From: an uncultured Flavobacteriaceae bacterium
Lineage (GTDB): Bacteria > Bacteroidota > Bacteroidia > Flavobacteriales > Flavobacteriaceae
Assembly: GCA_947503005.1 (NCBI GenBank)
Contig: CANNCA010000011.1
Location: forward strand, 1 to 32,956
Direction of reading: 5' to 3'
DNA: 32,956 nt
The notes below the pieces were generated by a model. That model saw only the letters and a program-made list of their open reading frames with translations. It did not search any database and had not been told where the DNA came from. Positions 1,871 through 32,956 of this stretch are shown piece after piece (the stretch's first letter is position 1; the number at the start of each line of letters is the position of its first letter). A program made the position numbers and the translations under genes.

Positions 1871-3736
1871 CTATCGCTTCCCTGATTTTTTCTGCTCCTC
1901 GGCCTGCTCCATCATTTCGCGCATCTTACGTTGAAACTTGTTTTCCTTCTTTGGTTTCTTTTTATTCTCCTGAATCTGGGCATGTATCTTGTCATTGTCG
2001 AGAATAAAATTCTTGATGACCAACATAATTCCTATGGTAATCAAGTTAGATATGAAATAGTACAAACTCAATCCACTCGCATAGTTGTTGAAGAATACCA
2101 ACATGAAAAACGGCATCAGGTACATGATAAACTTCATGTTTGGCATACCAGGTTGTTGTGGCATATTCTGACCTGTTGTCATCATCATATAGAAGAAAAT
2201 GGCAACGGAGGCCAAGATGGGGAAAAGACTGATATGATCACCGTAGAACGGTATTGAAAATCCTTCCGGGAATTGATAAATCGTATCAAATGAAGAAAGG
2301 TCATCGGCCCATAAAAATGATTTTTGACGCAATGCAAATGAGGTCGGGAAGAACATGAACAGCGCATAGAAAATAGGCATCTGTATAAATGCAGGTATAC
2401 AACCACTCATGGGGTTCACTCCTGCTTTACTATTAAGTTTCATAGTCTCCTGCTGCTTTTTCATAGCATTGTCCTTATACTTCTCGGCTATTTCAGCGAT
2501 TTCCGGTTTCAACACCTTCATTTTTGCCTGAGACAGGTAAGACTTGTAGGTAGCTGGAGACATTGCCAAACGTACTACAATGGTCATAATGATAATGGCT
2601 ACTCCGTAAGGGAAAATTCCACTCAAAAAAGTGTAGAAGGGCGTAAAGACATAGCGGTTGATCCATCCGAAAATCCCCCATCCGAAGGGAATGGAATCTT
2701 CCAACCCCAGCTCTTCATATTTAGCCAATACGGCCACATCGGTTGGGCCATAGTACCAGTGCATGTTCTTTGACAACTCACCACCCGCAAACTGCAACGG
2801 AACTACAGAGGTATACTCCTTAGTAAAACCTGCACTTCTACTTTCTTCTTCGACCAAGTTTACGGAGGTTAGGTCCGCTTTTTCAAATTCTTCCTTTGTT
2901 GCCAATATTGAACTGAAAAAGTGCTGCCGATACGACAACCATTTGACATCAACTTCGGTTTCATCATCGTCACTACCTTCAGACAACTTACTTATTTTAC
3001 CATCTTCATGGGAGTAGGTCAAACGGGTATACCGGTTCTCATAAGTGATACTTTTATTGTGACGAATTCCTTTTAGTTTCCATTCCATCTGTACAGGTTG
3101 GCTAGTATTGAAAACGCCGTTCAATCCTTGAGAACGTATGGTGAAATCCACGAGGTAATCATCAGGTTTCATTTCATAGCGATACTCCAGATACTTGTCA
3201 GCAGCTACTTTGGCCTTCATGGAAAGTACTTGATTGTCTCCACTTTTAGACAATGTGGGCTCAAAATAAAGGTCTTTGGTATTCAGCACCCTATTATCGG
3301 AGGTCGAGAAATTCAAGCCGAATTGCGCATTACCGTCTTTGACCAAATAAATCGGAATTGAGTCATAGGCCTTAAACGTCTTCATTTTGGCCTCGACAAT
3401 CTGCCCTCCTTTGTTGCTAATCTCAAGATATACCAAATCGTTCTCCAATTTGGTAGTACCTTCAGATGGTTGGGTAAAACCAAACGCACCTATAGTGCTT
3501 TTGTAGTTTGCCACTGCAGTGGAATCTTGAAGGCTCACTGCAGGTGTCACCGCAACCGTATTTTCTTCAACTTGATTTTCGGGTGCTTTCTGTTCGGCTT
3601 CCACTTGCTCTTGTTGTGCCTTTTGGGCCTCCAGCTCTTCGGGGGTTGGCCTGTTTTGGTAAAACATGTAAATGAGTATACCGAAGATGAGCACAAAACC
3701 GATTATGGAATTGATATCCAATTTCTTTTCTTCCAT
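1871..3736 (-). CDS. yidC: Membrane protein insertase YidC
   Basis: 621 aa, inner-membrane insertase/foldase that inserts and folds membrane proteins with or without SecYEG. It has an N-terminal transmembrane anchor (~9-26), then a ~320-residue periplasmic domain as in Gram-negative YidC. The conserved C-terminal 60KD_IMP core starts near GWINRYVFTPFYTFLSGIFP and carries VVRLAMSP (the arginine of the hydrophilic groove) and further membrane spans. The tail is very basic (KKKPKKENKFQRK), suited to ribosome contact. ATG at 3736. It follows pyrG on the same strand with an 81-bp gap and is closed by the hairpin at 1817-1846, so co-transcription with pyrG is likely. Confidence 0.97.
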   Translation of the reverse strand: MEEKKLDINSIIGFVLIFGILIYMFYQNRPTPEELEAQKAQQEQVEAEQKAPENQVEENTVAVTPAVSLQDSTAVANYKSTIGAFGFTQPSEGTTKLENDLVYLEISNKGGQIVEAKMKTFKAYDSIPIYLVKDGNAQFGLNFSTSDNRVLNTKDLYFEPTLSKSGDNQVLSMKAKVAADKYLEYRYEMKPDDYLVDFTIRSQGLNGVFNTSQPVQMEWKLKGIRHNKSITYENRYTRLTYSHEDGKISKLSEGSDDDETEVDVKWLSYRQHFFSSILATKEEFEKADLTSVNLVEEESRSAGFTKEYTSVVPLQFAGGELSKNMHWYYGPTDVAVLAKYEELGLEDSIPFGWGIFGWINRYVFTPFYTFLSGIFPYGVAIIIMTIVVRLAMSPATYKSYLSQAKMKVLKPEIAEIAEKYKDNAMKKQQETMKLNSKAGVNPMSGCIPAFIQMPIFYALFMFFPTSFALRQKSFLWADDLSSFDTIYQFPEGFSIPFYGDHISLFPILASVAIFFYMMMTTGQNMPQQPGMPNMKFIMYLMPFFMLVFFNNYASGLSLYYFISNLITIGIMLVIKNFILDNDKIHAQIQENKKKPKKENKFQRKMREMMEQAEEQKKSGKR

Positions 3737-3817
3737 CTATATAAGGATAATTTGGTAACGTTTGATTTTTTGCTGATAACGCATCAGCATCCGCAAATAT
3801 ATGTCCAATTGTGCTTT

Positions 3818-5470
<1,653 letters not shown>

Positions 5471-5480
5471 TTACGGGATT

Positions 5481-5488
5481 CAAAGATA
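5481..5488 (-). promoter_or_regulatory. Putative -7 box (TATCTTTG) of the pyrG promoter
   Basis: Read on the minus strand, 5488-5481 is TATCTTTG, an exact match to the Bacteroidota -7 consensus TAnnTTTG, 25 bp before the pyrG start. A clear TTTG at -33 is not visible. The element lies between the DUF3820 gene and pyrG, so pyrG can be transcribed independently of it. Confidence 0.5.
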
Positions 5489-5505
5489 CAAATCCCCAAA
5501 GGAAA

Positions 5506-5748
5506 TCAGTACTTCTTGGGTGGAAAATCTTTTTGCATCCTGCGTATCAGGGCTTCTAGGCCGTTAACTTTTATTTCGTGCATCGATTTTAACAGCATAC
5601 CGAGTTTTCCATCAGGAAAACCTTTTCGATTGAACCAGACCAAGTAGGGTTCAGGCAAATCGACCAAATAACGCCCCTTAAATTTTCCGAAAGGCATTTT
5701 ATAATGGGCCAATTCTATTAATTTTTCTTTATCGGGGGATACGTTCAT
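5506..5748 (-). CDS. DUF3820 family small protein
   Basis: 80 aa. The sequence YKMPFGKFKGRYLVDLPEPY followed by LVWFNRKGFP matches the DUF3820 family (small cytoplasmic proteins once described as putative quorum-sensing-regulated virulence factors, mechanism unknown). The MPFGKxKG core and the WF..KGFP motif are the recognisable parts, and the length is normal for the family. It sits 50 bp upstream of pyrG on the same strand and diverges from the isomerase-like gene at 5798. The molecular role is unknown. Confidence 0.85.
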   Translation of the reverse strand: MNVSPDKEKLIELAHYKMPFGKFKGRYLVDLPEPYLVWFNRKGFPDGKLGMLLKSMHEIKVNGLEALIRRMQKDFPPKKY

Positions 5749-5767
5749 TTTTTAAAGCTAAAAAATA

Positions 5768-5775
5768 TATCTTTA
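5768..5775 (+). promoter_or_regulatory. Putative -7 box (TATCTTTA) for the isomerase-like gene
   Basis: TATCTTTA differs by one base from the TAnnTTTG consensus and lies 22 bp before the ATG at 5798, in the short divergent gap with DUF3820. The same octamer occurs before the genes at 16288 and 20985, which supports it as a recurrent promoter element here. Confidence 0.4.
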
Positions 5776-5797
5776 GGAAGCTTAAATAATAACCGAA

Positions 5798-6670
5798 ATG
5801 GAAAGACGAAAATTCATAGGAACATCGGCCGCGGCAACAGTAGGCCTAATTGCAGGCAAAACCAATGCAGCAACTCCAAGTGCAAAAGAAAATGAAATGA
5901 CCGAACTTAAAGGAAATATCAATCATAGTGCCTGCCGTTGGTGTTATAACAAAATTCCAATGGAAGAATTTCTTAAGAATTTAAACGACCTTGGGGTCAA
6001 GGCGATGGACCTGACCGGACCCGAAGATTGGCCGTTAATGAAAAAATACGATATTCACGCCTCAATGTGTTGGGGCGCCGGCAAAGGCATTCTAGAAGGG
6101 TGGAACGACCCGAAATTGCATGAAGAATTGATAGCAGATTATAATAAGGTAATTCCCTTAGTCGCAGAAGCAGGTTATACCAATCTCATTTGTTTCAGCG
6201 GAAATCGTAACGGTATGGATGATGCCGAAGGTTTGAAAAACTGTGCCGAGGGTCTGAAAAAAATAATGCCCACCGCGGAAAAACATGGCGTCATTATTCA
6301 AATGGAGCTGCTAAACTCAAAAGTTGACCATAAAGATTATATGTGTGATAAAAGTGCTTGGGGAGTAGAATTATGCAAGGCCATTGGTTCGGACAACTTT
6401 AAACTTCTATATGATATTTACCATATGCAGATTATGGAAGGTGATGTGATTCGAAATATTCAAGATTATCATGAGTATTTTGGTCATTATCATACGGGTG
6501 GTAATCCAGGGCGGCATGAAATCAACGAAACACAAGAATTGTATTACCCGGCTATTATGAAGGCAATTGTTGAAACCGGATTTAAGGGTTACGTGGCCCA
6601 AGAATTCATTCCAACATGGGATGACCCAATTGCGGCCTTAAAAGAAGGGATTACCATTTGTGATGTGTAA
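5798..6670 (+). CDS. Tat-exported hydroxypyruvate isomerase-like TIM-barrel protein
   Basis: 290 aa. It begins MERRKFIGTSAAATVG, a twin-arginine signal, so a folded, probably metal-bound enzyme would be exported to the periplasm. The mature part is a xylose-isomerase-like TIM barrel of the hydroxypyruvate isomerase (Hyi) group. Likely metal ligands are Glu170 (IIQMELLNSK), Asp206 (LYDIYHMQ), His232 (HYHTGG) and Glu269 (VAQEFIP); their spacing fits the E-D-Q/H-E set of Hyi. TGGNPGRHEI is characteristic of the group. The true substrate is open: Tat-exported Bacteroidota members are often annotated only as sugar isomerase/epimerase. A TATCTTTA box lies 22 bp upstream, and a small lipoprotein gene follows 25 bp downstream. 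Confidence 0.85.
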   Translation: MERRKFIGTSAAATVGLIAGKTNAATPSAKENEMTELKGNINHSACRWCYNKIPMEEFLKNLNDLGVKAMDLTGPEDWPLMKKYDIHASMCWGAGKGILEGWNDPKLHEELIADYNKVIPLVAEAGYTNLICFSGNRNGMDDAEGLKNCAEGLKKIMPTAEKHGVIIQMELLNSKVDHKDYMCDKSAWGVELCKAIGSDNFKLLYDIYHMQIMEGDVIRNIQDYHEYFGHYHTGGNPGRHEINETQELYYPAIMKAIVETGFKGYVAQEFIPTWDDPIAALKEGITICDV

Positions 6671-6695
6671 TTATGCATGAACCTAAATAACTCTA

Positions 6696-6968
6696 ATGCC
6701 TAAAAAACTATTGATTTTCATGCTTGCCTTTGTAAGTATATCACTACTCACAAATTGTGTAAAGGGTGCTAAAGACCTCATAGAAGATATCGACCAACGG
6801 ACGCGATGTGTGGAACTTTTATCCGAATTCACGACAGAAGGAGGTGATAAAAGTTGCGCACAACAAACCGCCGATATTGACAAAATTCTAAGAGACTGTG
6901 GTCCGTTTTTAACGCAAGACCAAAAAGATGAATTGAATTTCGCAAAGGAAAACTGTGAGGACAATTAG
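6696..6968 (+). CDS. Small cysteine-containing lipoprotein, function unknown
   Basis: 90 aa. The N-terminus MPKKLLIFMLAFVSISLLTNC looks like a lipoprotein signal peptide with the lipid cysteine at position 21, although the -1 residue (Asn) is not the commonest. The mature ~69 residues hold four further cysteines (TRCVEL, KSCAQQ, RDCGPF, ENCEDN) and are acidic and probably helical. I recognise no family. It starts 25 bp after the isomerase-like gene and ends 36 bp before an outer-membrane protein gene, all on the plus strand. The even cysteine count in the mature chain suggests disulfides, an inference only. Confidence 0.7.
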   Translation: MPKKLLIFMLAFVSISLLTNCVKGAKDLIEDIDQRTRCVELLSEFTTEGGDKSCAQQTADIDKILRDCGPFLTQDQKDELNFAKENCEDN

Positions 6969-7004
6969 AAGACTTTTTTACCTTTACAAAAAATGTGATA
7001 ACCA

Positions 7005-7538
7005 ATGAAAAGACTTATAAAAACAAGTTTAATACTTTTATCTGCTATTTATGGCCTACAGGCCCAAGAATTTGAATCCGGAACCAATGCCATCAACCTA
7101 GGTATTGGATTAGGAGGAAGTTATGGCACCTTCACAACCTCATCGGTTTCACCGGGATTTAGCGTTAGTTATGAAAGAGGAATTTGGGATATTGGTGGCC
7201 CAGGGGTAATCAGTCTGGGTGGTTTCATTGGAGTAAAGGCCTATCGCTATGAATTTATAGGTTCAAATTCTAAATGGAGCTATACCACGGTTGGTTTTAG
7301 AGGAGCCTATCACTTCAATGGTCTCGAAGTTGAAAATCTTGACGTTTATGGTGGAGCAATGCTTGCCTATAATATTGCTAATTTTTCGGGTGATTCCGTT
7401 GCCTTTAAAGTAGCAAGTACTTTCAGGCCTACTATTTATGTTGGCGGCAGGTGGTACTTCAGTGACACTTTTGGTGTTTTTGCAGAAGCAGGTTACGGTG
7501 TTGCTTTTCTAACCGTAGGAGGCACATTTAGATTTTGA
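7005..7538 (+). CDS. Outer-membrane beta-barrel family protein
   Basis: 177 aa. Signal peptide MKRLIKTSLILLSAIYGLQAQ, then alternating hydrophobic/polar strands rich in Gly and aromatics, ending ...TVGGTFRF with the C-terminal phenylalanine typical of barrels inserted by BamA. The length fits a small eight-stranded OmpX/OmpA-like barrel. No peptidoglycan-binding domain follows. A TACCTTTA box at 6979-6986, 18 bp before the start, could serve as its own promoter. The gene converges with the DUF922 gene and no clear terminator hairpin lies in the 31-bp gap. Function beyond an outer-membrane location is unknown. Confidence 0.75.
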   Translation: MKRLIKTSLILLSAIYGLQAQEFESGTNAINLGIGLGGSYGTFTTSSVSPGFSVSYERGIWDIGGPGVISLGGFIGVKAYRYEFIGSNSKWSYTTVGFRGAYHFNGLEVENLDVYGGAMLAYNIANFSGDSVAFKVASTFRPTIYVGGRWYFSDTFGVFAEAGYGVAFLTVGGTFRF

Positions 7539-7569
7539 ATTTGATTGTGTTCACGCTCCTAAAACGTTC

Positions 7570-8100
7570 CTAGTTAAGCCCTAGTGCGGCCCCTATTTTT
7601 TTGTTCCAAATAATCTGCTTCTGTACATTCCGAGAGAAGTTGGTGTCTTCGTCGTATTGATTCTGAAAATCGTTTAGGGCCTTATTATTCTTATTATAAA
7701 TAGTCTTGATTTTTGATTTTACATTTTCCGGAGTAAAATGGGCTTCAGAAAGTTCTTTGCGAAGTTTTCTTGCGAACAATTCTGAAATATCGAAGTGCAA
7801 CTGTTCATGACTTAAGACAATATCATCGGACAATGTGGGTTTGTACCATGATTTTCGGGGATAAAAATGGGTGCTAATCTTAAAATCAACTTTGAAGGTT
7901 TTTCTCGTACCCGAGCTTGAAAATTGATACGAAATTCCACTTGCTGTGGTCGCTGCCACCCTATCGCTTACAGGTGGTTCTCCTTTAAAATCTTTCCAAC
8001 TCAGTCTTTTTTCGCTCCAACGGATGGTTTCGTAATCTTGTGCAGGACAAAAGCCCGTCCACAAAAAAAATAAGACCAAAATAACTTTTACAGCAACCAA
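7570..8100 (-). CDS. DUF922 secreted putative zinc protease
   Basis: 176 aa. Signal peptide MVAVKVILVLFFLWTGFCPAQ, then a domain of the DUF922 type with the zinc motif HEQLH (HExxH) in VLSHEQLHFDISELFA. The family is predicted to be metal-dependent proteases; no substrate is known. No in-frame ATG fits: the frame upstream closes at a stop, so the start is read as TTG at 8100, which overlaps the end of the osmC-type gene by 13 bp and gives a good signal peptide. It is the last gene of the guaA-LysM-OsmC-DUF922 run. Confidence 0.8.
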   Translation of the reverse strand: MVAVKVILVLFFLWTGFCPAQDYETIRWSEKRLSWKDFKGEPPVSDRVAATTASGISYQFSSSGTRKTFKVDFKISTHFYPRKSWYKPTLSDDIVLSHEQLHFDISELFARKLRKELSEAHFTPENVKSKIKTIYNKNNKALNDFQNQYDEDTNFSRNVQKQIIWNKKIGAALGLN

Positions 8101-8492
8101 TTGAATGTGATTGCTTTTTCGATATCTGGATGTAAACTATAAAGAACAGGACACGTATTGGCCGTGTGAGTCAGAATCTTTCGGTGTTTTTCAGAAACAT
8201 CGGAAGGAAGATTCAAGTCAATTTCTATTTTGGAAATACGTCTTGGATCCGCAGACATGTGTTTGATCACTTCAGCAGTTGAATTCGAAAGATCAACGTC
8301 TAGGCCTTCCGCTTTCATTCCCATCATGGTCAGCATACAACTGGCCAAACCGGTTGCAACCGTATCCGTTGGTGAAAATGCCTCTCCTTTTCCATTATTG
8401 TCAATTGGGGCATCCGTCAAAAAAACATCTCCCGAACGTAAGTGCTCGCAGCTGGTTCGCAGTCCCCCCTGATAGGTTACTTTTGAAGTCAT
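8088..8492 (-). CDS. OsmC family peroxiredoxin-like protein
   Basis: About 134 aa from MTSKVTYQGG. OsmC/Ohr proteins reduce organic or fatty-acid hydroperoxides with two cysteines. Here they are in ATGLASCMLTMMGMKA and ANTCPVLYSLHP, the expected positions. An ATG at 8501 (MINMTSK) would overlap the LysM gene by 8 bp; the ATG at 8492 lies one base after that gene's stop and gives the usual family N-terminus, so I prefer it. It overlaps the DUF922 gene at its 3' end. The tight packing suggests one transcript from guaA onward. Confidence 0.88.
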   Translation of the reverse strand: MTSKVTYQGGLRTSCEHLRSGDVFLTDAPIDNNGKGEAFSPTDTVATGLASCMLTMMGMKAEGLDVDLSNSTAEVIKHMSADPRRISKIEIDLNLPSDVSEKHRKILTHTANTCPVLYSLHPDIEKAITFNWLL

Positions 8493-8493
8493 A

Positions 8494-10650
8494 TTAATCA
8501 TTTAATTCTTTGATGCGCATATCCTCATAAGAAAGAATGTAAGAGGCTTGATTGAAATATCCTGAAGTTAAATCCTTTTCATAAGAAAACTTGTTTCCCG
8601 TGTATTCCGTTTGACCTATTAGTTTAGATACTTCGATCAAGTTATTCTTATAAGCCAATTTAAGTAGTAAATCATACGTCAAATCAAATCCGCGTACGGC
8701 GTAACGGTCGGGCGTATCACCAAATTTTTTGCGATATTTTTTGGCAAAACTGTTGTTCTCAGCTTCACGGTACACCGACGGGAATGTAAAGTTCAGGTTC
8801 GATAAATGGGAGCCGGAAATCACATCACTATCAAATGCATTATTCTTATTAGTCGTGAACATTCGCAATTGTAACTTTTCTTTACTTATTTCAGGGTCTA
8901 ACAGTGCATTTTGAAAGGAATTTAGAATCGAGGTAACGCTTGAAATCAATTTGTAATTGCCCGATTCTACGAAAACCCAATTCTCTTCTTCTTCCGACAA
9001 CAATGCTCCCAGTTTATCACGGACCACACCAATGTTTTTTTCTTCTTCTATAACTTCAGCAATCTTTGCTTCGGGAAACCGTGCCAAAATAGAATCTCGC
9101 GCAACGGTATTTGTACTATCGGCAATAACAACTATATTTTGTGCTTCTTTTACTGATTTCATGTAGTCGAGCATTCTTGTTCGCAATACCTCATCGGGCG
9201 TATAGGAGAAAAAAACATTGCTCATGCTCAAATTCGTATTTGCAGGAATGGGCGCTATAACAGGAACTTGGTATTGAGAAGTTCTTACGGCAACTTCACG
9301 AAGAGAAGCCACATCCAATGGACCAACGATAGCGCTATACTCGGCGAGGTTTTCTTGGAGCAATATCTCGCGCGTCTTGGCCAGATCCAATTGGTTGTCA
9401 AAGGTGCGCACGTCAACCGATATTCCCAGGGAGGCAACAGAATCCAAAGCTACCAACGCACCTGAATACAACCCCAGACTATACTTTAAGCTATTACGAG
9501 ATCCTATGATTTTGCGAACTCCTGACTTATCGTTCAAATCCAACCTGTTCAAACGAAAAGGCAACAAGAACATGATTTTAGGCTTGTTCGCAGGGTTTAT
9601 ACTATCCAACAAATCGATTTTGTCCAAGACCAATGCATTACGTACCTCAAAATCTCCCGTTTGCCCCTTAGGTAATTTGAGCACCATACCCGCTTTCAAA
9701 CCTTCTTTCAAATCGGGGTTCAGGGCCAATAACTCTTTATAGGTAACACCCAGCTTTCGCGTTAAAGAAAATTCGGTCTGTTTTGGCTTTACTTCGTAGA
9801 AGATATAGTTGTCGGTATTTACATCTCCTCCTTCTACCTTCCGTTCAGGAATTCTGATGACCATACCTTCTTTTAAACCACCTCGTTCAGTAATCTCAGG
9901 ATTCAAACGTACAATCTCATCTGATTTTACATTGAACTTTTTCTCCAACTGGTAAAAGTTCATCTTAGGAGGTACCGTGTACGAAATAAATAGCTCCGTC
10001 ACTTGATTTTGCACACTGCTACCTGCTTTCTTTGGCATTTTAAGCTCTTGACCTTCCCCTAAGTAATTTGAATTTTTTGCTAAATCAGGATTCAGCACGA
10101 CCATACTATCAATGGTAATACCATATTTATGGGCAATACTCCATCGAGTTTCCTTTGCGGCTACGGTATAGGTTTCATAATCATCTTCATTAATGGTATT
10201 CTCAGACGGCGCGACTCTTTTATACTTTGGTATACGCAGCACCATTTTCTTTTTCAACTGTGCCGAATACAATTCTCGGTTGTATTTCTTAATCTGATCT
10301 TCGGTAATTTTATAACGCTGTGCAATACCGTATAAGGTTTCCTTTTTCCGCACTTTATGCGAGGTGAAACCAATCGGTTCTTCTTCAACCTTTGTTTCGG
10401 TAGTCGATGTGGTTGCAGCCGCCGCATCAACCGGAATGACCAAAATAGTATTGGCTTGAAGGTCCTGACCTGCTTTAATTTCCTTATTGTAGGTTAGAAT
10501 ATTTGCGGGTGTAACTTTGTACTGCTTCGCGATACTTTCCAGTGTTTCTCCTCTTTTAACGGAGTGCGTCGAAAATTTCTGCGCCGTTGCTTTGCATCCC
10601 ACAAAAACAAACAGAAGCAATACGACTATATTTTTAAAAACTTGATTCAT
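8494..10650 (-). CDS. LysM-repeat protein with periplasmic-binding-protein-like C-terminal domain
   Basis: 718 aa from MNQVFKN (an ATG at 10662 would add MGIT and overlap guaA). The N-terminus ends in VFVGC, a lipoprotein-type or plain signal. Five LysM modules follow, starting near FSTHSVKRGE, FTSHKVRKKE, YETYTVAAKE, ISYTVPPKMN and IFYEVKPKQT, each ending in a hydrophobic-Pro strand such as VIP, RIP, KMP, RIP or KLP. From about residue 355 on (KIMFLLPFRLN...) the chain resembles a type 1 periplasmic-binding/LivJ-like fold (LYSGALVALDSV, AIVGPLDVASL, FFSYTPDEVLR, VRGFDLTYDLL). LysM binds peptidoglycan GlcNAc; the ligand of the second half is unknown. It sits between guaA and osmC with almost no spacing. 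Confidence 0.88.
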   Translation of the reverse strand: MNQVFKNIVVLLLFVFVGCKATAQKFSTHSVKRGETLESIAKQYKVTPANILTYNKEIKAGQDLQANTILVIPVDAAAATTSTTETKVEEEPIGFTSHKVRKKETLYGIAQRYKITEDQIKKYNRELYSAQLKKKMVLRIPKYKRVAPSENTINEDDYETYTVAAKETRWSIAHKYGITIDSMVVLNPDLAKNSNYLGEGQELKMPKKAGSSVQNQVTELFISYTVPPKMNFYQLEKKFNVKSDEIVRLNPEITERGGLKEGMVIRIPERKVEGGDVNTDNYIFYEVKPKQTEFSLTRKLGVTYKELLALNPDLKEGLKAGMVLKLPKGQTGDFEVRNALVLDKIDLLDSINPANKPKIMFLLPFRLNRLDLNDKSGVRKIIGSRNSLKYSLGLYSGALVALDSVASLGISVDVRTFDNQLDLAKTREILLQENLAEYSAIVGPLDVASLREVAVRTSQYQVPVIAPIPANTNLSMSNVFFSYTPDEVLRTRMLDYMKSVKEAQNIVVIADSTNTVARDSILARFPEAKIAEVIEEEKNIGVVRDKLGALLSEEEENWVFVESGNYKLISSVTSILNSFQNALLDPEISKEKLQLRMFTTNKNNAFDSDVISGSHLSNLNFTFPSVYREAENNSFAKKYRKKFGDTPDRYAVRGFDLTYDLLLKLAYKNNLIEVSKLIGQTEYTGNKFSYEKDLTSGYFNQASYILSYEDMRIKELND

Positions 10651-10652
10651 TG

Positions 10653-12185
10653 TTATTCCCATTCTATGGTTGCTGGAGGTTTGGAACTAATATCATATAC
10701 GACACGATTCACTCCAGGGACTTTATTAATTATATCATTAGAGGTTTTTTGCAAAAACTCATAGGGTAAATTCACCCAATCAGCGGTCATTCCATCCGTA
10801 CTTTCAACAGCACGTAAAGCTACACATTTTTCATAAGTACGCTCGTCTCCCATCACCCCTACACTATTTACCGGTAAGAGCATGGCACCTGCTTGCCAGA
10901 CTTTGTCATACAACCCCCACTCACGCAAACCTTGTATAAAAATATGGTCAACTTCTTGTAGGATGGCCACTTTCTCCCGGGTTATATCACCTAGGATTCG
11001 AATTGCCAATCCCGGACCTGGGAATGGGTGCCTGCCCAAACGTTCATCGCCGACATCCATACTTTTTCCTACCCTACGCACTTCATCTTTAAACAACATT
11101 TTTAAAGGCTCCACCACTTTCAGTTTCATAAAATCAGGCAAGCCACCTACATTGTGATGACTCTTAATAGTTGCGGATGGACCGCCCGTACCCGAAACTG
11201 ATTCAATAACATCAGGATAAATCGTACCCTGCGCCAGCCATTTGGCATCTTCAACAAGATGTGCCTCATCGTCGAAAACCTCGATAAAAACCCGTCCTAT
11301 AATTTTTCGCTTCTTTTCAGGATCACTTTCCCCAGCCAAGGCATCCAAAAAGCGTGCCGAAGCATCTACGCCCTTCACATTGAGTCCCATTCCTTCATAT
11401 TGCTTCAACACATCGGTGAACTCGTTTTTACGCAACAGTCCATTGTTGACGAAAATACAGTGCAGGTGTTTGCCGATGGCTTTGTGCAGCAATACTGCGG
11501 CCACTGTGGAATCAACACCACCTGAAAGTCCTAAAATTACTTTATCCGTACCGATTTTCTGTTTTAATTCAGCAACCGTTTTTTCAACAAATGCATCGGG
11601 TGTCCAGGTCTGTTTCAAACCTGCAATGTGCACCAAGAAATTTTCAAGAATTTGTTTTCCTTGGGTGCTGTGGTATACTTCCGGATGGAACTGAATGCAG
11701 TATGTATCCTCATCGTTAAAGCGGAAAGCCGCGTTCTTCACATCTTGCGTACTCGCTAGCAAGGTTGTATTCTCAGGAAGTGACTTTATCGTATCGGCAT
11801 GGCTCATCCAAACTTGAGAGCCATCGGTAATCTCATAGAAAAAGGGCTCCGTACTGGAAATTGCAGTCAAATTGGCCCGACCGTATTCACGGGTATTAGA
11901 CTTTTCAACATTCCCACCATGAAAATGGGCCAAATATTGTGCTCCGTAGCACACCCCCAACAGGGGTATTTTACCCCTGATTTGTGATAAATCAGGATGT
12001 GGTGCATCATCGGCACGTACCGAGAAGGGGGAACCCGAAAGAATGACCGCCCCATACTCGGAGATATCTTCAGGCAGTTTGTTATAGGGTTTTATTTCAG
12101 AGAAAATATTCAGTTCTCGAACACGTCTACCAATGAGTTGGGTATATTGAGAACCGAAGTCTAGAATCAGGACTTTGTTTTGCAT
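10653..12185 (-). CDS. guaA: GMP synthase (glutamine-hydrolysing)
   Basis: 510 aa from [20 protein letters not shown]. It aminates XMP to GMP in purine synthesis. The class I amidotransferase has Cys in LLGVCYGAQ and His-Glu in [11 protein letters not shown]. The ATP-pyrophosphatase has the PP-loop [14 protein letters not shown]. The dimerisation domain carries [12 protein letters not shown] and ends [11 protein letters not shown], the standard terminus. Two codons upstream an in-frame TTG at 12191 could also start, but the ATG at 12185 gives the family N-terminus. The plus-strand sequence CAAAAATA at 12189-12196 reads TATTTTTG on the coding strand, a possible -7 box but very close to the start codon. 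Confidence 0.97.
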
Positions 12186-26329: not shown

Positions 26330-27514
26330 ATGGCGACCATAACGCTTACGCCGATTTTGCATCAAAGTATCGAGCAAATAAAAATCGAATTTGACCACGA
26401 TGTTGCTGTAGAAAATTATGTCAAAAAATTCCGTGGAGTCAAATGGAGCCGGACGCACGAGGTATTTTGTCTTCCTTTTACCAAAAAGAATACGAACGAC
26501 CTGTACATTTATCTTAGAAAACAAGGCCATTTTGTAAACTACAGCGCCTTAAAGGCAGTAGCACCGTTCGACACCAAAAAAAATCATCAGGAAAACAAAA
26601 TAGCACTAACGACAGAAAATAAAAAAAGGCTGCTCGCTTATCAAAATTATCTGCGCGGCTTGCGATTGAGCCCCAATACCATTGCCACCTACACAACTTT
26701 TATATGCTATTTTCTTGGCGATCTCAAAGACCAATCGCTAGATGTGATTGACAATACCCACATCAGGCTCTTCATTGAGCGCCTACAGGCCAAAAAGAAT
26801 TTTAGCATCAGCAGCCATCGTCAACTGATCGGAGCCATAAAACATTTTGCTCAACTCTTTGGTACCACCGCAGTAGTCACTACAGATTTACGAATGCCCA
26901 GAAAAGATAAAAAACTACCGGTGGTTTTAAGTCAATACGAAATCATCAACCTCTTACGATACACCACCAATATAAAGCACAAGGCAACCTTGGCCCTTCT
27001 CTATTCTGCCGGACTGAGAATCAGTGAAATCATCAGCTTGCGTTTAGCTGACATCGACATCAATAGAAGACAATTACACATAAAAAATGCCAAAGGGCGA
27101 AAAGACAGGTATGTCGTTATCGCCGAAAGCACCATTGCACTATTACACAACTATGTAGCTGCTTTCAAACCAAAATATCTTTTTATTGAGGGCCAAAACG
27201 GCAAACCTTATAGTGCCACAAGTATCAGGAAATTTTTAAAGAAGTATTGCAAAGCAGCCGGTATTCATAAAAATGTGACCCCACATAGTCTTCGACATTC
27301 TTATGCCACACATTTAATAGAAAACGGTGTAGGGCTGCGACACGTTCAAGAACTTCTTGGTCATTCAAAACCCGAAACCACTATGATCTATACACACATA
27401 GCCAAGAAAGATTTATTATCGGTTACTAGCCCTTTAGATGAAGCAGTTAGGCAATTTCAAAATTCTGCTAAAGTACCCTCAAAAGTTTCTTTATCAGGGT
27501 CTATAAACCCATAA
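26330..27514 (+). CDS. Tyrosine recombinase heading an integron-like cassette array
   Basis: 394 aa. Residues 1-~85 form an N-terminal domain (VKWSRTHEVFCLPFTKKN) seen in some Bacteroidota integrases. Residues ~100-190 are the SAM-like core-binding domain (YQNYLRGLRLSPNTIATY). The catalytic domain has Arg230 (SAGLRISE), the AKGRKDRY lysine hairpin, His319/Arg322 (HSLRHSYATHL), His345 (LLGHSKPETT) and nucleophile Tyr354 (MIYTH); all are present, so it should be active. The end TTMIYTHIAKKDLL...SPLD is IntI/XerC-like. The extra ~16-residue patch that marks classical integron integrases is missing between VAAFKPKYLFIEG and the HSLRH box. It points the same way as the cassettes; the first cassette starts 28 bp after its stop. 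No tRNA lies next to it. Confidence 0.93.
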   Translation: MATITLTPILHQSIEQIKIEFDHDVAVENYVKKFRGVKWSRTHEVFCLPFTKKNTNDLYIYLRKQGHFVNYSALKAVAPFDTKKNHQENKIALTTENKKRLLAYQNYLRGLRLSPNTIATYTTFICYFLGDLKDQSLDVIDNTHIRLFIERLQAKKNFSISSHRQLIGAIKHFAQLFGTTAVVTTDLRMPRKDKKLPVVLSQYEIINLLRYTTNIKHKATLALLYSAGLRISEIISLRLADIDINRRQLHIKNAKGRKDRYVVIAESTIALLHNYVAAFKPKYLFIEGQNGKPYSATSIRKFLKKYCKAAGIHKNVTPHSLRHSYATHLIENGVGLRHVQELLGHSKPETTMIYTHIAKKDLLSVTSPLDEAVRQFQNSAKVPSKVSLSGSINP

Positions 27515-27525
27515 TGACCTATATT

Positions 27526-27551
27526 AGTTGTCATATAACAAGTTGGCATTC
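27526..27551 (+). other. Putative attI-like primary insertion site
   Basis: AGTTGTCAT (27526-27534) and AGTTGGCAT (27541-27549) are direct repeats with one difference, 15 bp apart. GTTGTCATATAAC is an imperfect palindrome and AACAAGTT a perfect one. The G at 27542 with the following TT is the left border of the first cassette. Unlike the sites between cassettes, there is no long palindrome here, as expected of attI compared with attC. Confidence 0.5.
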
Positions 27552-27574
27552 ATTATAACCAAACATAGAAACTT

Positions 27575-28588
27575 ATGAAAAACATTTTAATTTTAGTCAT
27601 ACTAATAATATTTTCGTCTTGTAAAAACGGAGAAAAAAAAGAAGAAAATATAGTTGAAAAAGTACCTACTTCAGAAGAAAGAGCCAAATATGCTGAATTG
27701 AAAACCGAAGCTTGGAATCTTTACGAAAGCAAAGACTATTTAGCATCTGCAAAGAAATATTCGGAAGCATTTACTGCTCTTGGAAATAAGGGAAACACAA
27801 ATGACAGATATAATGCTGCTTGCTCTTGGGCGTTAGCCAATCAAATTGATTCATCATTCGTGCAATTATTCAGAATAGCCGAAAAAGGTAATTATAATAA
27901 TTATGGACATATCACAACAGATAGTGATTTAAACGCTTTACATTCCGATAAAAGATGGGACAAAGTGCTGGATTTAGTTAAAGGTAATAAGGAAAAGGCA
28001 GAAGCTAATTTGGACAAACCCTTAGTTGCAATTCTTGATACTATTTATCAAGAAGACCAAGGTTTAAGAAAACAAATTAATGAAGTCGAGGAAAAATATG
28101 GTAGAGATTCGGACGAAATGAAAGCTCATTGGAAAACCATAAACGAAAAAGACTCTATTAATCTAATTAAAATTCAAAAGATACTTGACGAAAGAGGTTG
28201 GCTTGGTCAAGACGTAATTGGAGGGCAAGGAAATACGACACTATTTTTAGTCATTCAGCATTCGCCAATTGAGATACAACAAAAATATTTACCAATGATG
28301 AGAGAAGCTGTGAAGAAAAATAATGCAAGACCAAGTAGTTTAGCATTATTAGAGGACAGAGTAGCTTTAAGAACTGGTAAAAAACAAATTTATGGCAGTC
28401 AAATTGGTAGAAACCAAGAAACAGGAGAGTTTTATGTTTCACCAATAGAAAACCCCGAAAAAGTAGATGAAAGAAGAGCCGAAGTTGGACTTGGCACTTT
28501 ACAAGAATATATATCGAATTGGAATATAACTTGGGATGTTGAAAAACATAAGGAAATGACTACGAAATTAGAGACTGAAAAAAAATAA
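27575..28588 (+). CDS. DUF6624 lipoprotein with TPR-like N-terminus (cassette 1)
   Basis: 337 aa. The signal MKNILILVILIIFSSC places the lipid cysteine at 16; KNGEKKEEN after it is charged and acidic/basic. Residues ~30-135 look like a TPR-type helical region (AWNLYESKDYLASAKKYSEA, NAACSWALANQIDSSF). The C-terminal ~165-310 region (IYQEDQGLRKQINEVEEKYG, KILDERGWLGQDVIGGQGN, TLFLVIQHSPIEIQQKYLP, ALLEDRVALRTGKKQIYGSQ) matches DUF6624, a domain of unknown function common in Bacteroidota. No promoter is visible before it, as usual for cassette genes. Its stop is 3 bp before the cassette's terminal inverted repeat. Confidence 0.85.
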   Translation: MKNILILVILIIFSSCKNGEKKEENIVEKVPTSEERAKYAELKTEAWNLYESKDYLASAKKYSEAFTALGNKGNTNDRYNAACSWALANQIDSSFVQLFRIAEKGNYNNYGHITTDSDLNALHSDKRWDKVLDLVKGNKEKAEANLDKPLVAILDTIYQEDQGLRKQINEVEEKYGRDSDEMKAHWKTINEKDSINLIKIQKILDERGWLGQDVIGGQGNTTLFLVIQHSPIEIQQKYLPMMREAVKKNNARPSSLALLEDRVALRTGKKQIYGSQIGRNQETGEFYVSPIENPEKVDERRAEVGLGTLQEYISNWNITWDVEKHKEMTTKLETEKK

Positions 28589-28591
28589 CGA

Positions 28592-28725
28592 AATGCCAAC
28601 AATGGCTATAAGTAATTGCTTGTTCTCGCCTACTTTTGAAATTCCTGCGGAATTTCCAACTTGGTGTGTACTTGCAAAGTTAAGTGCTAAACCACGCAAC
28701 TACTCATAGCCGAACCGTTACCTGC
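28592..28725 (+). repeat. attC-like recombination site 1
   Basis: AATGCCAAC (28592-28600) is the inverse box, complementary to 27542-27550. The stem 28604-28619 pairs with 28696-28711: 14 of 16 positions pair, with A opposite C at 28610/28705 and 28615/28700. An internal perfect hairpin sits at 28638-28656 (GAAATTCC/GGAATTTC). The site ends CCGTTACCTGC; GTTACCTGC (28717-28725) complements the end of the next cassette. Confidence 0.75.
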
Positions 28726-28749
28726 AAGCTGAAAAAACATCACGATTGA

Positions 28750-30162
28750 ATGAATATTAAGCATTACGAAATTGAAATTGAAGAAGAAAATCCTTTTGCT
28801 AACTGTAAACTGGACCGAAAAAAATATTCTTCCGTACTGACCAATATTATAAATTCATATCCTTACGGTTTTGTTCTTGCTTTAAACAACAAATGGGGAA
28901 CAGGTAAAACCACTTTTGTAAAAATGTGGGAACAAGACCTAAAAAACAACGATTATCAAACTTTGTATTTTAATGCTTGGGAAAATGACTTCGAAGATAA
29001 TCCGCTAACAGCTTTGATGGGAGAATTAAAAACTCTCACTACCAAAGAAACTGAACCTGAATTCAAAAAAACATTAAAAAAAGCTTCCACTTTAACTAAA
29101 CATATTGCACCTATAATTGCTAAAGCAATAGCCGATAGATATATTGATACAGAAGGTGTAAAAGAGGCTATTATCGGAGTAACAAAAGGATTATCCGATG
29201 TATTCGAAAATGAAGTCAATGAATATCAAAAAAAGAAAAAAAGTATATCTGATTTTCGTCAAAGTTTATCCGAATTTATTGCAAGTACAAATGAAGGAAA
29301 ACCATTAATATTCATTGTTGATGAACTCGATAGATGTAGACCAAATTATGCAGTTTCAATTTTAGAACAAATAAAGCACTTCTTTTCCGTGCCAAATATT
29401 GTTTTTATTCTGTCTATAGATAAAGTCCAATTAGGTAATGCTGTTAAAGGAGTATATGGAAGTGCTGATTTGGATGCAGATGAATATTTAAGACGATTTA
29501 TTGACTTAGAATACTCAATTCCAGAACCTGAAGCTGATATTTTTTACAAGTACTTATACGAATATTTCAAATTTGACGAGTTCTTCATTTCACCAGAAAG
29601 ACTTAAATACAGAAATGTAGATTCTGATAAATCAAATTTTCTTGAAACAAGCAAACTACTATTTACCAATGCTAAAATCCCTTTAAGACAGCAAGAGAAA
29701 ATTTTTGCACATTCAAGATTAGCTTTAAGAAGTTTTAATTGGAACACTTATGTAGTTCCGCATATTTTTCTGTTTCTAACATTTATAAAAATAAGACACA
29801 ACGACTTTTACGAAAAAATGAAATCTAAAAGTTTAAGTATTCAAGAATTACAAGAGCGATTTTTAGATTTAGTAAAAATTAAGATAAATGAAGAAACAGA
29901 AAGACAGCTAATGTGGCTCGAAGTCTATTTAGTAAATGTTTATAATAATTACTTCCAAGAAAGATATTATCGAAAACCTCTTTACGAAAGAGACAAGGAA
30001 ACTGGAGAGAATAAACTATTAATCACATCCATAATTAAAAAAGGAGCTGAAAATGACTTTATGCACATACTGGAAAGTATTAATAGAGGTCGTGGAGAAG
30101 GAGACTTAGACTTATCACATTTTACGAAACGAATTGATTTATTAGAAGATATAAAAACGTGA
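28750..30162 (+). CDS. KAP family P-loop NTPase (cassette 2)
   Basis: 470 aa. Walker A at 50-55 (NNKWGTGKTTFVKMWE), Walker B at 188-195 (FIVDELDRCRP), and ADEYLRRFIDLEYSIPEP, a typical KAP motif. KAP NTPases are STAND-like ATPases often tied to membranes; bacterial members include the phage-exclusion protein PifA and components of defence islands. This one lacks obvious transmembrane segments inserted in the NTPase domain. The gene is more AT-rich than the core genes. It is the only gene of its cassette, which ends 8 bp after the stop with GCAGGTAAC. A defence function is plausible but unproven. Confidence 0.88.
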   Translation: MNIKHYEIEIEEENPFANCKLDRKKYSSVLTNIINSYPYGFVLALNNKWGTGKTTFVKMWEQDLKNNDYQTLYFNAWENDFEDNPLTALMGELKTLTTKETEPEFKKTLKKASTLTKHIAPIIAKAIADRYIDTEGVKEAIIGVTKGLSDVFENEVNEYQKKKKSISDFRQSLSEFIASTNEGKPLIFIVDELDRCRPNYAVSILEQIKHFFSVPNIVFILSIDKVQLGNAVKGVYGSADLDADEYLRRFIDLEYSIPEPEADIFYKYLYEYFKFDEFFISPERLKYRNVDSDKSNFLETSKLLFTNAKIPLRQQEKIFAHSRLALRSFNWNTYVVPHIFLFLTFIKIRHNDFYEKMKSKSLSIQELQERFLDLVKIKINEETERQLMWLEVYLVNVYNNYFQERYYRKPLYERDKETGENKLLITSIIKKGAENDFMHILESINRGRGEGDLDLSHFTKRIDLLEDIKT

Positions 30163-30169
30163 AAAGCCA

Positions 30170-30374
30170 GCAGGTAACAATGTATATAAAAAATAGCGCA
30201 AGTAGTTTCTAATATCAAGTCTTGAGCATTTTTAGAAAGTCGCCAAATTTTTAAATTTGACGATTTACAATGAAAAAGATAAATAGTAAAATTTAAAAAT
30301 TCGGCTTGTGTTTAATCCGAAAAGTAACAGCTTATTTTCAGCGCTACTTTTCATATACGGAGCCGTTGTAGCAC
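30170..30374 (+). repeat. attC-like recombination site 2
   Basis: GCAGGTAAC (30170-30178) complements 28717-28725. The stem 30182-30199 (GTATAT A AAAA A TAGCGC) pairs with 30341-30358, with A opposite C at 30188/30352 and 30193/30347 and all 16 other positions paired. It ends GCCGTTGTAGCAC; GTTGTAGCAC (30365-30374) complements the end of cassette 3. Confidence 0.75.
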
Positions 30375-30393
30375 ATTTACAAAAACCAACTAA

Positions 30394-30861
30394 ATGCTTG
30401 AATTCATACTTTCTACATTAGCAGAATTCGGCCTACTTCGAGAGGATTATAAACATCGAAAACGAATAAGTAAAAAGGAAAAAGAAGACGGTACAAAAAG
30501 ACCTATACAAAAATACTTTCTGCAACCAAGTTCAATAATGGTCATTTCACTTTTAGTAATTGTAAGTATAAGCTCATTTCTGTTTTTCGGTTATCAAAGA
30601 AAATCTATTTACCCTGATAAAACTAAAAAAGAAATAGCCGAAATGAGCGATAGAATGAAAAATTGGAATCAAAAGTTCGGAAAATATCCTGCGAACTTGA
30701 ATGAGCTAATCGGAAACAATCCTTTAAGACAAGGTTGGGAAAAAGACGCTTGGAATCGAGAATACAAATTTAAGATTACGGAAAATGGACGAGGGTTTTT
30801 AATCACTTCTGCTGGCTCGGATGAAAAATTCCATACTGAAGATGACATTAAATCGAAATAA
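30394..30861 (+). CDS. Membrane protein with GspG-like pseudopilin C-terminal domain (cassette 3, gene 1)
   Basis: 155 aa. A basic cytoplasmic segment (HRKRISKKEKEDGTKRP) precedes one transmembrane helix (~48-68, IMVISLLVIVSISSFLFFGY). The extracytoplasmic part (KFGKYPANLNELIGNNPLRQ, GWEKDAWNREYKFKITE, TSAGSDEKFHTEDDI) resembles the C-terminal domain of type II secretion pseudopilin GspG, including the calcium-site-like GSD...DD end. It lacks the prepilin leader, so it is not a normal pseudopilin; the domain appears to be used on its own. It overlaps the next ORF. Confidence 0.7.
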   Translation: MLEFILSTLAEFGLLREDYKHRKRISKKEKEDGTKRPIQKYFLQPSSIMVISLLVIVSISSFLFFGYQRKSIYPDKTKKEIAEMSDRMKNWNQKFGKYPANLNELIGNNPLRQGWEKDAWNREYKFKITENGRGFLITSAGSDEKFHTEDDIKSK

Positions 30862-31114
30862 CAGAAGTTTAAAAATTATTAGGCTTTATCTAATCAGCTT
30901 AGTCTGTATAATCTGTTATTTCTTAATGGATAATTATAACGCAATAAACAAGCTTGTTGAGATAAACATTGAATATGGGTTTAATGAACATACTGATAAA
31001 TTTGTTGCACTTGTTTTCGGAGGTTTGCTCCAATATGGATTATTAGCAGTTGGAATATGTATTTTTTTATTACTGAGTTTTACTCTAATCAGAGACAAAA
31101 TCAAAACCGAATGA
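30842..31114 (+). CDS. Two-helix membrane protein, function unknown (cassette 3, gene 2)
   Basis: 90 aa from MTLNRNNRSLK (97 aa from the ATG at 30821). Two hydrophobic helices (LYLISLVCIICYFLMDNY and FGGLLQYGLLAVGICIFLLL) are separated by a short charged loop. It overlaps the end of the GspG-like gene by 20 bp in another frame, suggesting translational coupling and a functional pair. I recognise no family. The stop is 12 bp before the cassette's terminal inverted repeat. Confidence 0.6.
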   Translation: MTLNRNNRSLKIIRLYLISLVCIICYFLMDNYNAINKLVEINIEYGFNEHTDKFVALVFGGLLQYGLLAVGICIFLLLSFTLIRDKIKTE

Positions 31115-31126
31115 AAAAATAAAAAC

Positions 31127-31328
31127 GTGCTACAACAAAGCCTAAACGTAATGCGGACTTTAGGGCAAAACCGAAAGGTCTGAGTATATTTATAAAGTCG
31201 CTAAATCTTATGGATTTAGCTTTGGACAAAAAAAAGAAAAAGCAAAACAATAAGCTTTAGCTTCGTCGGCAAACGGAAACGAAGAGTTTCCTTGCCTCCG
31301 CACTACGCTTAGCCCAACCGTTAGCGTT
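31127..31328 (+). repeat. attC-like recombination site 3
   Basis: GTGCTACAAC (31127-31136) complements 30365-30374. The stem 31140-31157 pairs with 31297-31314, with A opposite C at 31146/31308 and 31151/31303 plus one C-C mismatch. An inner hairpin GCTAAATC/GATTTAGC sits at 31200-31220. It ends CCGTTAGCGTT; GTTAGCGTT (31320-31328) complements the end of cassette 4. Its left ~130 bp are nearly identical to site 4. Confidence 0.78.
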
Positions 31329-31361
31329 CATTGTAAAAAAGCATTCTACAAAGTTCAAAAT

Positions 31362-32762
31362 ATGAGTATACGTTTATGTACAGTTTTAATTTTGGCAGTT
31401 CTCTTTCATGCATGTAGTATAACTCCTCCGAATGAAGTCATAGATGGAATTCTAGAAGTTCCTGAAAACCGACTAAATCCCGATTCTCGAACTCTCAAAT
31501 TGGCATATAAAGTTCTTAAAGCAAAAAAAACTGATTCGTTAAAGGCGCCTATTTTACTTTTGGCGGGCGGGCCAGGAGCTCCCACCTTGTTCATGGAGGA
31601 ATATTGGAAAAATCATCTTTTCAGAAACGATAGGGATATTGTATTGATGGATCAACGTGGAACAGGTGCATCTGAAGCAAACTGTATTGACATGGGTAAA
31701 GCCATCCTTGATATTGCAAGACAAGACTTGAAACCTAAAGACGAACTATCCGCCTTGGACTCAATCTTTAACCAATGTAAGGAAGCGGTCAATCAAAAAG
31801 GAGTTGATTTGGCTGGGTATACTAGCCAAGAAAATGCTGCTGATTTTGAGGACTTACGTAAAGATTTGGGATATGAACAATGGAATCTATATGGCACTTC
31901 CTATGGTACAAGGTTGGGGTTGACCATCATGCGCGATTTTCCAAATAGTGTTCGTAGTTCAATCTTTGTAGGCATTTTTGCTCCAGAATATCAATTATCT
32001 GGAGAAACGATTATCGATTTTGAAAAATCTCTTTTTGAAGTTCTAAGGCGTTGTGAACAAAGTGAGAAATGTAATAACCGATATCCTAATCTTAAAAATC
32101 GTTTGTTAAATATCCTAGAAAAGTTAAAATCGGAACCTTTGCGTTTAGACTACGATTCAAAACCTTTTGCTCTGAACCGTCGTGATGCTTTATTAATATT
32201 ACACCAGTCACTTTATAGTCGCTATTCAATAGCATATATCCCCGAAATTATTGAAGCAATGGAGAACGGTGAATTGGAACCCATCAAAAACACCTTGCAA
32301 CGTATTGAATTCATTTACAATCTTGTTAATTGGCCGATGAACAATTCGGTCATGGCCTATGAAGAACTCCCCTTTATCGATAGTCTTAAAATAATTAATG
32401 CTCAGAGAAAATCTGAGCTAGGATTTGACATTACAACCTTTGAAGGGTTTAACTCTTTATCCAATTGGCATCCATTTAGGGCTCCGGTTCTTGAAAACCA
32501 ACCCGTGATTTCAGAAATACCCACATTGATGGCTTCGGGCAGTTTGGACCCCGTTACTCCCATTAGTAATTCCATCGAAGCTTTAAAGTATTTGAAAAAT
32601 GGTTATGGCGTCGTTTTCCCAGATGAAAGTCATGATATGGCTAACCCCTGTTTCCTTCAAATTTCCGAAGATTTTCTTAATAACCCTTTCAGTAAACCGG
32701 ATTTAGGTTGTAGCAAAATAAGACAACCAATTGAATGGAATTTACCCAAACCATCTCAATAA
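31362..32762 (+). CDS. TAP-like alpha/beta-hydrolase lipoprotein (cassette 4)
   Basis: 466 aa. Lipoprotein signal MSIRLCTVLILAVLFHAC. Alpha/beta-hydrolase fold: oxyanion region LLLAGGPGAPT, DIVLMDQRGTGASE, nucleophile Ser180 in LYGTSYGTRLG, Asp396 in ASGSLDPVTP and His424 in PDESHDMANPC, a complete triad. The late segment matches the TAP-like C-terminal domain of tripeptidyl-aminopeptidase/proline-iminopeptidase-type hydrolases. Likely an envelope peptidase or esterase; substrate unknown. It is the fourth cassette gene, flanked by sites 3 and 4. Confidence 0.88.
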   Translation: MSIRLCTVLILAVLFHACSITPPNEVIDGILEVPENRLNPDSRTLKLAYKVLKAKKTDSLKAPILLLAGGPGAPTLFMEEYWKNHLFRNDRDIVLMDQRGTGASEANCIDMGKAILDIARQDLKPKDELSALDSIFNQCKEAVNQKGVDLAGYTSQENAADFEDLRKDLGYEQWNLYGTSYGTRLGLTIMRDFPNSVRSSIFVGIFAPEYQLSGETIIDFEKSLFEVLRRCEQSEKCNNRYPNLKNRLLNILEKLKSEPLRLDYDSKPFALNRRDALLILHQSLYSRYSIAYIPEIIEAMENGELEPIKNTLQRIEFIYNLVNWPMNNSVMAYEELPFIDSLKIINAQRKSELGFDITTFEGFNSLSNWHPFRAPVLENQPVISEIPTLMASGSLDPVTPISNSIEALKYLKNGYGVVFPDESHDMANPCFLQISEDFLNNPFSKPDLGCSKIRQPIEWNLPKPSQ

Positions 32763-32808
32763 AAAAATGACCTACTCAAACGGAATACTCACTCGGGCGG
32801 AAACAACA

Positions 32809-32956
32809 AACGCTAACAAAACCTAAACGTAATGCGGGCTTTAGGGCAAAACCGAAAGGTCTATGTATATTTATAAAGACGCTAAATCTTATGGATTTAG
32901 CTTTGGAACAAAAAAAGAAAAAGCAAAACAATAAGCTTTAGCTACGTCGGCAGACG
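32809..32956 (+). repeat. attC-like recombination site 4 (cut by the right edge)
   Basis: AACGCTAAC (32809-32817) complements 31320-31328. After it, AAA, six bases, A (32827), CGTA, A (32832) and TGCGGG repeat the geometry of sites 1-3. The sequence from 32818 to the end is over 90% identical to site 3. The right arm is outside the window. Confidence 0.75.

Follow-up and report, generated by a model that had tools for sequence, protein, structure and literature searches.

A probable chromosomal integron-like cassette array headed by a tyrosine recombinase without the IntI patch in Flavobacteriaceae

Sedentary chromosomal integrons, or superintegrons, of the Vibrio cholerae type are built from the integrase IntI, an attI site and an array of cassettes that end in attC sites. 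The locus described here lies in a 32,956-nucleotide stretch of DNA from an uncultured Flavobacteriaceae bacterium (assembly GCA_947503005.1, contig CANNCA010000011.1), hereafter called the window, which is an entire contig (C11) of a 4.58 Mb genome in 31 contigs. As in superintegrons, a recombinase stands at the head of the locus beside an attI-like site, the arrays of such loci are long and one-directional with mostly one-gene cassettes, the sites are two-stem hairpins with complementary cassette ends and bottom-strand selectivity, and many unrelated cassettes are carried, with defence and toxin-antitoxin genes among the cargo. Unlike superintegrons, the flavobacterial recombinase lacks the IntI patch, is codirectional with the cassettes and has an extra N-terminal domain, and the attI-like site lies after its gene and not before it. 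The flavobacterial arm is a private 10-mer (GTTN7) instead of GTTRRRY, and the stem is free of bulges in the first 17 positions of most sites and contains conserved G.T wobbles. Judged from sequence comparison, the locus is very probably a chromosomal integron-like array, in which cassettes would be excised as circles and the recombinase would join the folded bottom-strand site to the attI-like site.

Other described systems share single features with it. The pdif modules of Acinetobacter plasmids are, like the flavobacterial cassettes, gene modules between tyrosine recombinase sites, but their sites are short and double-stranded, occur in both orientations and form no hairpin. Xer and XerA recombinases resolve chromosome dimers at dif sites, and we know of no cassette arrays for the archaeal enzymes. 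These are patchless as the window recombinase is, and their alignments begin at residue 90 or 105 of the window protein, past its N-terminal domain. "Integron-like" simple tyrosine recombinases have also been described (Smyshlyaev 2021, PMC8138268). The accessible sections of that paper state that the IntI insertion is not fully conserved in the integron-like subgroup, describe the insertion as essential for integron function, and mention neither sites nor arrays nor any Bacteroidota system for patchless members.

Private cassette ends and the folded strand

Each of the window cassettes opens with G^TT and private bases, and the same stretch returns as its reverse complement at the end of that cassette (Table 1). 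An earlier note, made from the window sequence, had described a tyrosine recombinase heading at least four same-strand cassettes with unrelated products, separated by foldable sites of 134-205 bp, and the positions, products and three complete sites in Table 1 bear this out. The own-end rule was followed in 22 loci, comprising 20 fetched from near-complete genomes (one to four contigs each) and two arrays of the window's genome. Chains of 13 to 22 cassettes that obey the rule were found downstream of the recombinase in seven of them, with related recombinases in other genera, and 110 loci shuffled in 3-base blocks gave chains of at most 5. The opposite strand was unusable as a control for the chain finder, since self-complementary pairs show up on both strands.

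A second detector used weight matrices that covered only the conserved flanks; the tested locus was kept out of the training, and the seven variable bases were ignored. It found 211 sites on the forward strand of the 22 loci and none on the opposite strand. Of 184 cassettes, 158 had a start that matched their own end at 6 or 7 of the 7 positions. At an array junction the two arms come from adjacent cassettes, and a match this good was seen there in 11 of 211. Because the start matches its own end and not the neighbour's arm, the outer stem closes fully only in the cassette circle. A single consensus arm had been expected and was ruled out: GTTRRRY fits 12 of 147 cassette starts, and in place of the RYYYAAC/GTTRRRY arms of integrons the arms consist of AAC/GTT plus a private complementary heptamer, as the earlier note had suspected from the cassette-specific bases that follow GTT. 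AAC-to-GTT distances span 54-227 nt. Two loci (L074 and L076) contain sites with distances of only 54-64 nt, in which the variable top is nearly absent, beside the 119-nt and 185-nt classes.

The sites form imperfect hairpins with an outer and an inner stem, a spacer and a variable top. With DNA folding parameters, the bottom strand averaged -30.5 kcal/mol over 145 sites when these were in circle form and -24.4 kcal/mol when they were in the array, and it was more stable than the top strand in 140 of the 145 circle-form sites. The inner stem has 17 ungapped positions with at least 11 Watson-Crick pairs in 180 of 215 unique sites; extrahelical bases were judged over these first 17 stem positions, where 180 of 215 sites need no bulge. 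On the top strand, the non-Watson-Crick oppositions of the inner stem are A.C or C.A in 423 cases and G.T in 33, counted without favouring A.C in the alignment offset (a version that favoured A.C was nearly identical). The same opposition, A facing C, comes just past the 10-bp arm match in 113 of 169 arms. A top-strand A.C is a G.T wobble on the bottom strand, and cassette transcripts carry the top strand; selection therefore acts on single-stranded DNA (ssDNA) and not on RNA, and the selected form is the bottom strand. Classical attC sites also recombine as the bottom strand, according to the accessible part of PMC8946536.

The same pairing was seen in an alignment of 51 bottom-strand sites, made of 50 non-redundant sites out of 154 in the 114-124 class and the window site. 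Pairing cells amounted to 94.5%, compared with 68.5% after shuffling, and both partners vary in 12 of 15 pairs. One G.U pair is common (37/51) and another nearly fixed (48/51), and the covariation score was 0.629 versus 0.160 for shuffled and at most 0.147 for slid alignments. The palindromic form of the sites and their position between codirectional genes would also suit RNA elements, such as terminators or attenuators, or passive intergenic repeats. However, the transcribed top strand shows A.C where the other strand shows G.T (423 versus 33), arms that belong to one cassette lie a whole gene apart, and a search of Rfam gave no match to the sites up to E 1. RNA elements were rejected because the wobbles are on the wrong strand for transcripts and Rfam is blank, and we consider this whole explanation extremely improbable.

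Table 1. Features of the integron-like locus in the window (ORF, open reading frame; R1, covariance model of the sites)
Feature	Position	Strand	Remarks
Tyrosine recombinase, 394 aa	26330..27514	+	R230, K255, H319, R322, H345, Y354 (presumed catalytic residues); no IntI patch insertion
N-terminal extra domain, residues 1-77	26330..26560	+	Fold possibly like XPB damage-recognition domain, HARP more weakly
attI-like site	27520..27551	+	Promoter-like TATATTAG, then ATATAAC-AA-GTT; predicted crossover G27542^T
Cassette 1	27542..28716	+	Own arms GTTGGCATT 27542-27550 and AATGCCAAC 28592-28600; 9 bp complementary
Cassette 1 ORF, 337 aa	27575..28588	+	DUF6624; lipoprotein-like start by eye
attC-like site 1, both arms, 134 bp	28592..28725	-	R1 score 86.9 bits; stable fold on the bottom strand
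Cassette 2	28717..30364	+	Own arms GTTACCTGC 28717-28725 and GCAGGTAAC 30170-30178; 9 bp complementary
Cassette 2 ORF, 470 aa	28750..30162	+	KAP-family P-loop NTPase
attC-like site 2, both arms, 205 bp	30170..30374	-	
Cassette 3	30365..31319	+	Own arms GTTGTAGCAC 30365-30374 and GTGCTACAAC 31127-31136; 10 bp complementary
Cassette 3 ORF a, 155 aa	30394..30861	+	Weak T2SSG-like
Cassette 3 ORF b, 97 aa, overlaps ORF a	30821..31114	+	No convincing family
attC-like site 3, both arms, 202 bp	31127..31328	-	
Cassette 4 to own end arm	31320..32817	+	Own arms GTTAGCGTT 31320-31328 and AACGCTAAC 32809-32817; 9 bp complementary
Cassette 4 ORF, 466 aa	31362..32762	+	Alpha/beta hydrolase, TAP-like C-terminus
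attC-like site 4, cut by contig end (32956)	32809..32956	-	94% identity to site 3 over 142 nt

The recombinase and its attI-like site

The window recombinase contains what we take to be the six usual catalytic residues (Table 1). The 37-residue insertion that forms the IntI patch was present in three of three IntI controls and in none of 36 rows of the window-recombinase family and its relatives, in agreement with the earlier note, and residues about 189-243 of IntI4 were unmatched when aligned with the window recombinase. The recombinase alignment held 44 of 50 proteins; six (L037, L045, L055, L056, L058 and L074) were excluded as partial, duplicates or with doubtful starts. By sequence, the nearest core is that of archaeal Xer/XerA (PDB 4a8e and 5hxy), and XerA was the top match by Foldseek. 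The XerC and XerD equivalog cut-offs were not reached by the window recombinase (184 versus 335 bits and 194 versus 330 bits). In a tree of 41 rows IntI, Xer and the window-recombinase family were separate. No sister group is claimed for the family, given the great length of the Xer branches and a warning from the tool about false joins.

A plain member of the IntI/attC family in Bacteroidota, under-scored by current models, would have the same logic of attI, hairpin sites, the own-arm rule and codirectional cassettes. The IntI profile TIGR02249 matched all 44 recombinases of the set at E <= 1e-10, and the window recombinase passed NF040815 (XerA_Arch), titled "site-specific tyrosine recombinase/integron integrase" in NCBIfam, by 2 bits (222 versus a cut-off of 220). 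Bacteroidota are also listed among the integron phyla in the accessible parts of two papers (PMC8618304, PMC9668308). However, the window recombinase and a second one from the same genome scored 189.3 and 217 bits with TIGR02249, below its cut-off of 265, whereas four IntI controls scored 323-418. The absence of the insertion and the poor fit of GTTRRRY point the same way, and R1 found no sites in loci L022-L028, four of which have IntI. Hence, we regard simple membership of that family as unlikely. The locus works like an integron, but it should not be filed under the IntI/attC family, because patch, profile cut-off and arm consensus were each tested and failed.

The N-terminal domain appears to resemble the XPB damage-recognition domain (XPB-DRD) in fold, and its sequence profile gave only chance-level matches against the PDB. 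The AlphaFold2 (AF2) model of the whole recombinase was middling, with a pLDDT of 73.9 and a pTM of 0.47.

The putative counterpart of attI, with its core AAC..G^TT beside the integrase gene, is an ATATAAC-NA-GTT type motif after the recombinase stop. In the window, positions 27519-27544 read CTATATTAGTTGTCATATAAC-AA-GTT. The pattern ATATAA, 1-5 nt and GTT was found at most 230 nt from the stop, mostly about 30 nt past it, in 38 of 44 loci and in 46 of 3000 random windows. The 44 were what remained of 51 recombinase loci when three that end too soon (L040, L042, L053), one with no whole recombinase frame (L069) and three duplicates were set aside. One of the 38 matches, on contig C4 of the window's genome, is due to chance, as the real site there differs, which leaves 37 of 44. 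A search of up to 2.4 kb recovered, in 21 of the 38 loci, the end of the first cassette that is complementary to its start.

A TATATTTG-like element (27520-27527 in the window) stands just ahead of the insertion site in many loci. It presumably resembles the -7 box of Bacteroidota promoters, and for this reason a cassette promoter is possible. As the earlier note had recorded, the window recombinase is codirectional with the cassettes. In an Owenweeksia metagenome-assembled genome (L020) the R1 sites at 452-8718 lie upstream of the recombinase at 10001-10813, and the array runs in the opposite direction, as in classical integrons. The second recombinase of the window's genome belongs to another subtype (35% identical) and has its own cassettes on the minus strand of contig C4 (L012 1-3121). 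The insertion site there, as in L076, seems to be of another form, with AATTGTT preceded by a palindrome in place of ATATAACNAGTT. Upstream of this recombinase, tRNA-like and mutS-like sequences were recognized by eye.

Cassette movement, cargo and distribution

Evidence for movement comes from repeated and shared cassettes. One array (L076) has three copies of a 306-bp cassette and two of an 1823-bp cassette at 100% identity, and another (L066) has four copies of a cassette of about 437 bp at 96-99.8%. Homologous cassettes within arrays differ in both arms in step. When the window cassettes were compared with 299 genomes of the family, the right end fell at most 3 nt from a shared GTT in 73 of the 147 alignments listed, 41 of them exactly, with matches from the window's own genome excluded; random placement of the right ends gave a mean of 4.6 and a maximum of 12. 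Five of the 17 alignments longer than 700 nt begin at most 1 nt from an inner GTT, not counting one that starts at the query's own edge. Cassette 3 is present in another genus at 86% identity, from GTT to GTT, with different neighbours.

The flanking M14 peptidase gene is kept in 12 of 13 other genomes of the genus, which belong to other species, and in none of the 13, five of which were inspected closely, does the DNA match extend into the recombinase. The earlier note had held that conserved gene order with no cassette gain or loss would speak against an integron-like system; in the genomes of the genus, compared as species and not as strains, the DNA match stops short of the recombinase, and cassettes are duplicated within arrays and shared between genera. 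Duplicates and borders together suggest a mobile, mostly single-gene, codirectional cassette array.

Cassette 2 with its site (28717-30374) and a cassette of L076 (9199-11205) have the same outer arm, a similar 185-nt site and unrelated proteins; they look as though a circular site that already existed had received new genes. In L131, around position 1501, the usual site end is absent from the left border at which a relative of cassette 3 stands, and this border may represent another kind of insertion site.

The fetched loci contain 169 cassettes, repeats included, of which 153 have an ORF of at least 50 aa; the longest ORF runs along the array in 135 of the 153, and the median coding fraction is 0.90. 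Matches to 68 Pfam families were obtained among 126 cassette proteins. Among the 25 families listed, 17 occur once and none more than three times. Restriction enzymes, abortive-infection-type and other defence models and the Gp49 family, which presumably includes HigB-like toxins, are among the cargo.

The search of Bacteroidota genomes that the earlier note had proposed found relatives of the recombinase (E <= 1e-50) in 172 of the 299 family genomes, the window's own included, and R1 sites (E <= 1e-6) in 260 of them. One named relative is that of Gelidibacter mesophilus, a member of the Flavobacteriaceae. R1 sites were also found in 43 of 109 genomes of a phylum sample, or 34 of the 98 outside the family. 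The window's genome has 40 R1 matches (E <= 0.01) on eight contigs, three of which are short and carry sites along nearly their whole length. Seven of its contigs (C1, C4, C7, C11, C15, C18 and C19) stop in or near repeated sites (32815-32956 in the window), and therefore part of the arrays is probably hidden by the assembly.

Several observations weigh against a cassette array driven by this recombinase. R1 models the 119-nt class only, and its training sites came from genomes that were later scanned. Many of the 147 listed alignments consist of sites alone, which end at GTT because the arm is private. Among the 20 fetched loci, L059 has no detected site, L068 one, L072 two, and L061 and L070 three each. 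Of eight named relatives (L014-L021), only L016, L019 and L020 gave R1 sites; L014, L015, L017, L018 and L021 gave none, though several of these five end shortly past the recombinase. L017-L019 lack the N-terminal domain. Sites were found in 168 of the 172 genomes with a recombinase relative, the other four having no R1 site, and also in 92 of the 127 genomes with no recombinase match at E <= 1e-50. The sites could therefore be due to a different enzyme, with XerC/D among the candidates, or to activity in the past. When 16 such genomes were searched again, seven had a longer relative with a weaker match (E 4e-45 to 3e-50), two a 43% fragment and one (G242) weak matches only, while six (G071, G171, G059, G142, G198 and G209) had only proteins of about 300 aa, which were taken for Xer by length alone. 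The complete genome G071 (L120) has a row of 16 sites in which 11 of 15 links obey the arm rule, and the only recombinases detected in it are two of about 300 aa. Such rows resemble the clusters of attC sites lacking integrases (CALINs) of classical integrons, yet they loosen the link to the recombinase. The earlier note had named palindromes with no link to recombinase loci as a counterargument; this is partly borne out by the 92 genomes and by G071 among them.

These six genomes are also the ones that would suit movement of the sites by XerC/XerD as double-stranded dif-like modules, with the neighbouring recombinase incidental. However, AAC-to-GTT lengths of 54-227 nt, a single direction and strand-biased folding would be superfluous for double-stranded modules, and the recombinase lies ahead of the array with the attI-like site after it. 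We consider this explanation very unlikely, and the integron-like array moved by the window recombinase and its relatives is preferred.

Proposed mechanism and its meaning

In the mechanism that we infer for this array, a cassette would be excised as a circle, in which its two own arms meet and the complete hairpin site forms. The window recombinase would act as the catalyst, cutting between G and TT and joining the bottom-strand ssDNA hairpin to the attI-like site, which is double-stranded and directly follows the recombinase gene (ATATAACNAG^TTN7). New cassettes would thus enter behind the recombinase, along its transcription. The recombination product would presumably be resolved by replication, and the XPB-DRD/HARP-like N-terminal domain may grip the base of the folded site.

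A wider proposal, on which we are evenly balanced, is that Bacteroidota evolved their own kind of integron without the patch. In it the strand would be chosen through G.T wobbles and not extrahelical bases, a private 10-bp lock would close only in the circle, and the XPB/HARP-like domain would hold the site; this kind would be the main cassette collector of the Flavobacteriaceae. A literature search, with preprints and most subscription journals outside its scope, found no description of a patchless system of this type. The results suggest a second kind of bacterial gene-collecting machine that has gone largely unnoticed.

In the accessible text on IntegronFinder 2.0, the one complete integron named for Bacteroidetes is that of Salinibacter (PMC9024848), and the present loci open a large mobile cassette pool, defence genes included, in this phylum. 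The repeated sites may also explain assembly breaks in such genomes. A family-wide patchless system that apparently recombines folded ssDNA sites is a natural comparison for the role of the patch and for the origin of single-strand recombination.

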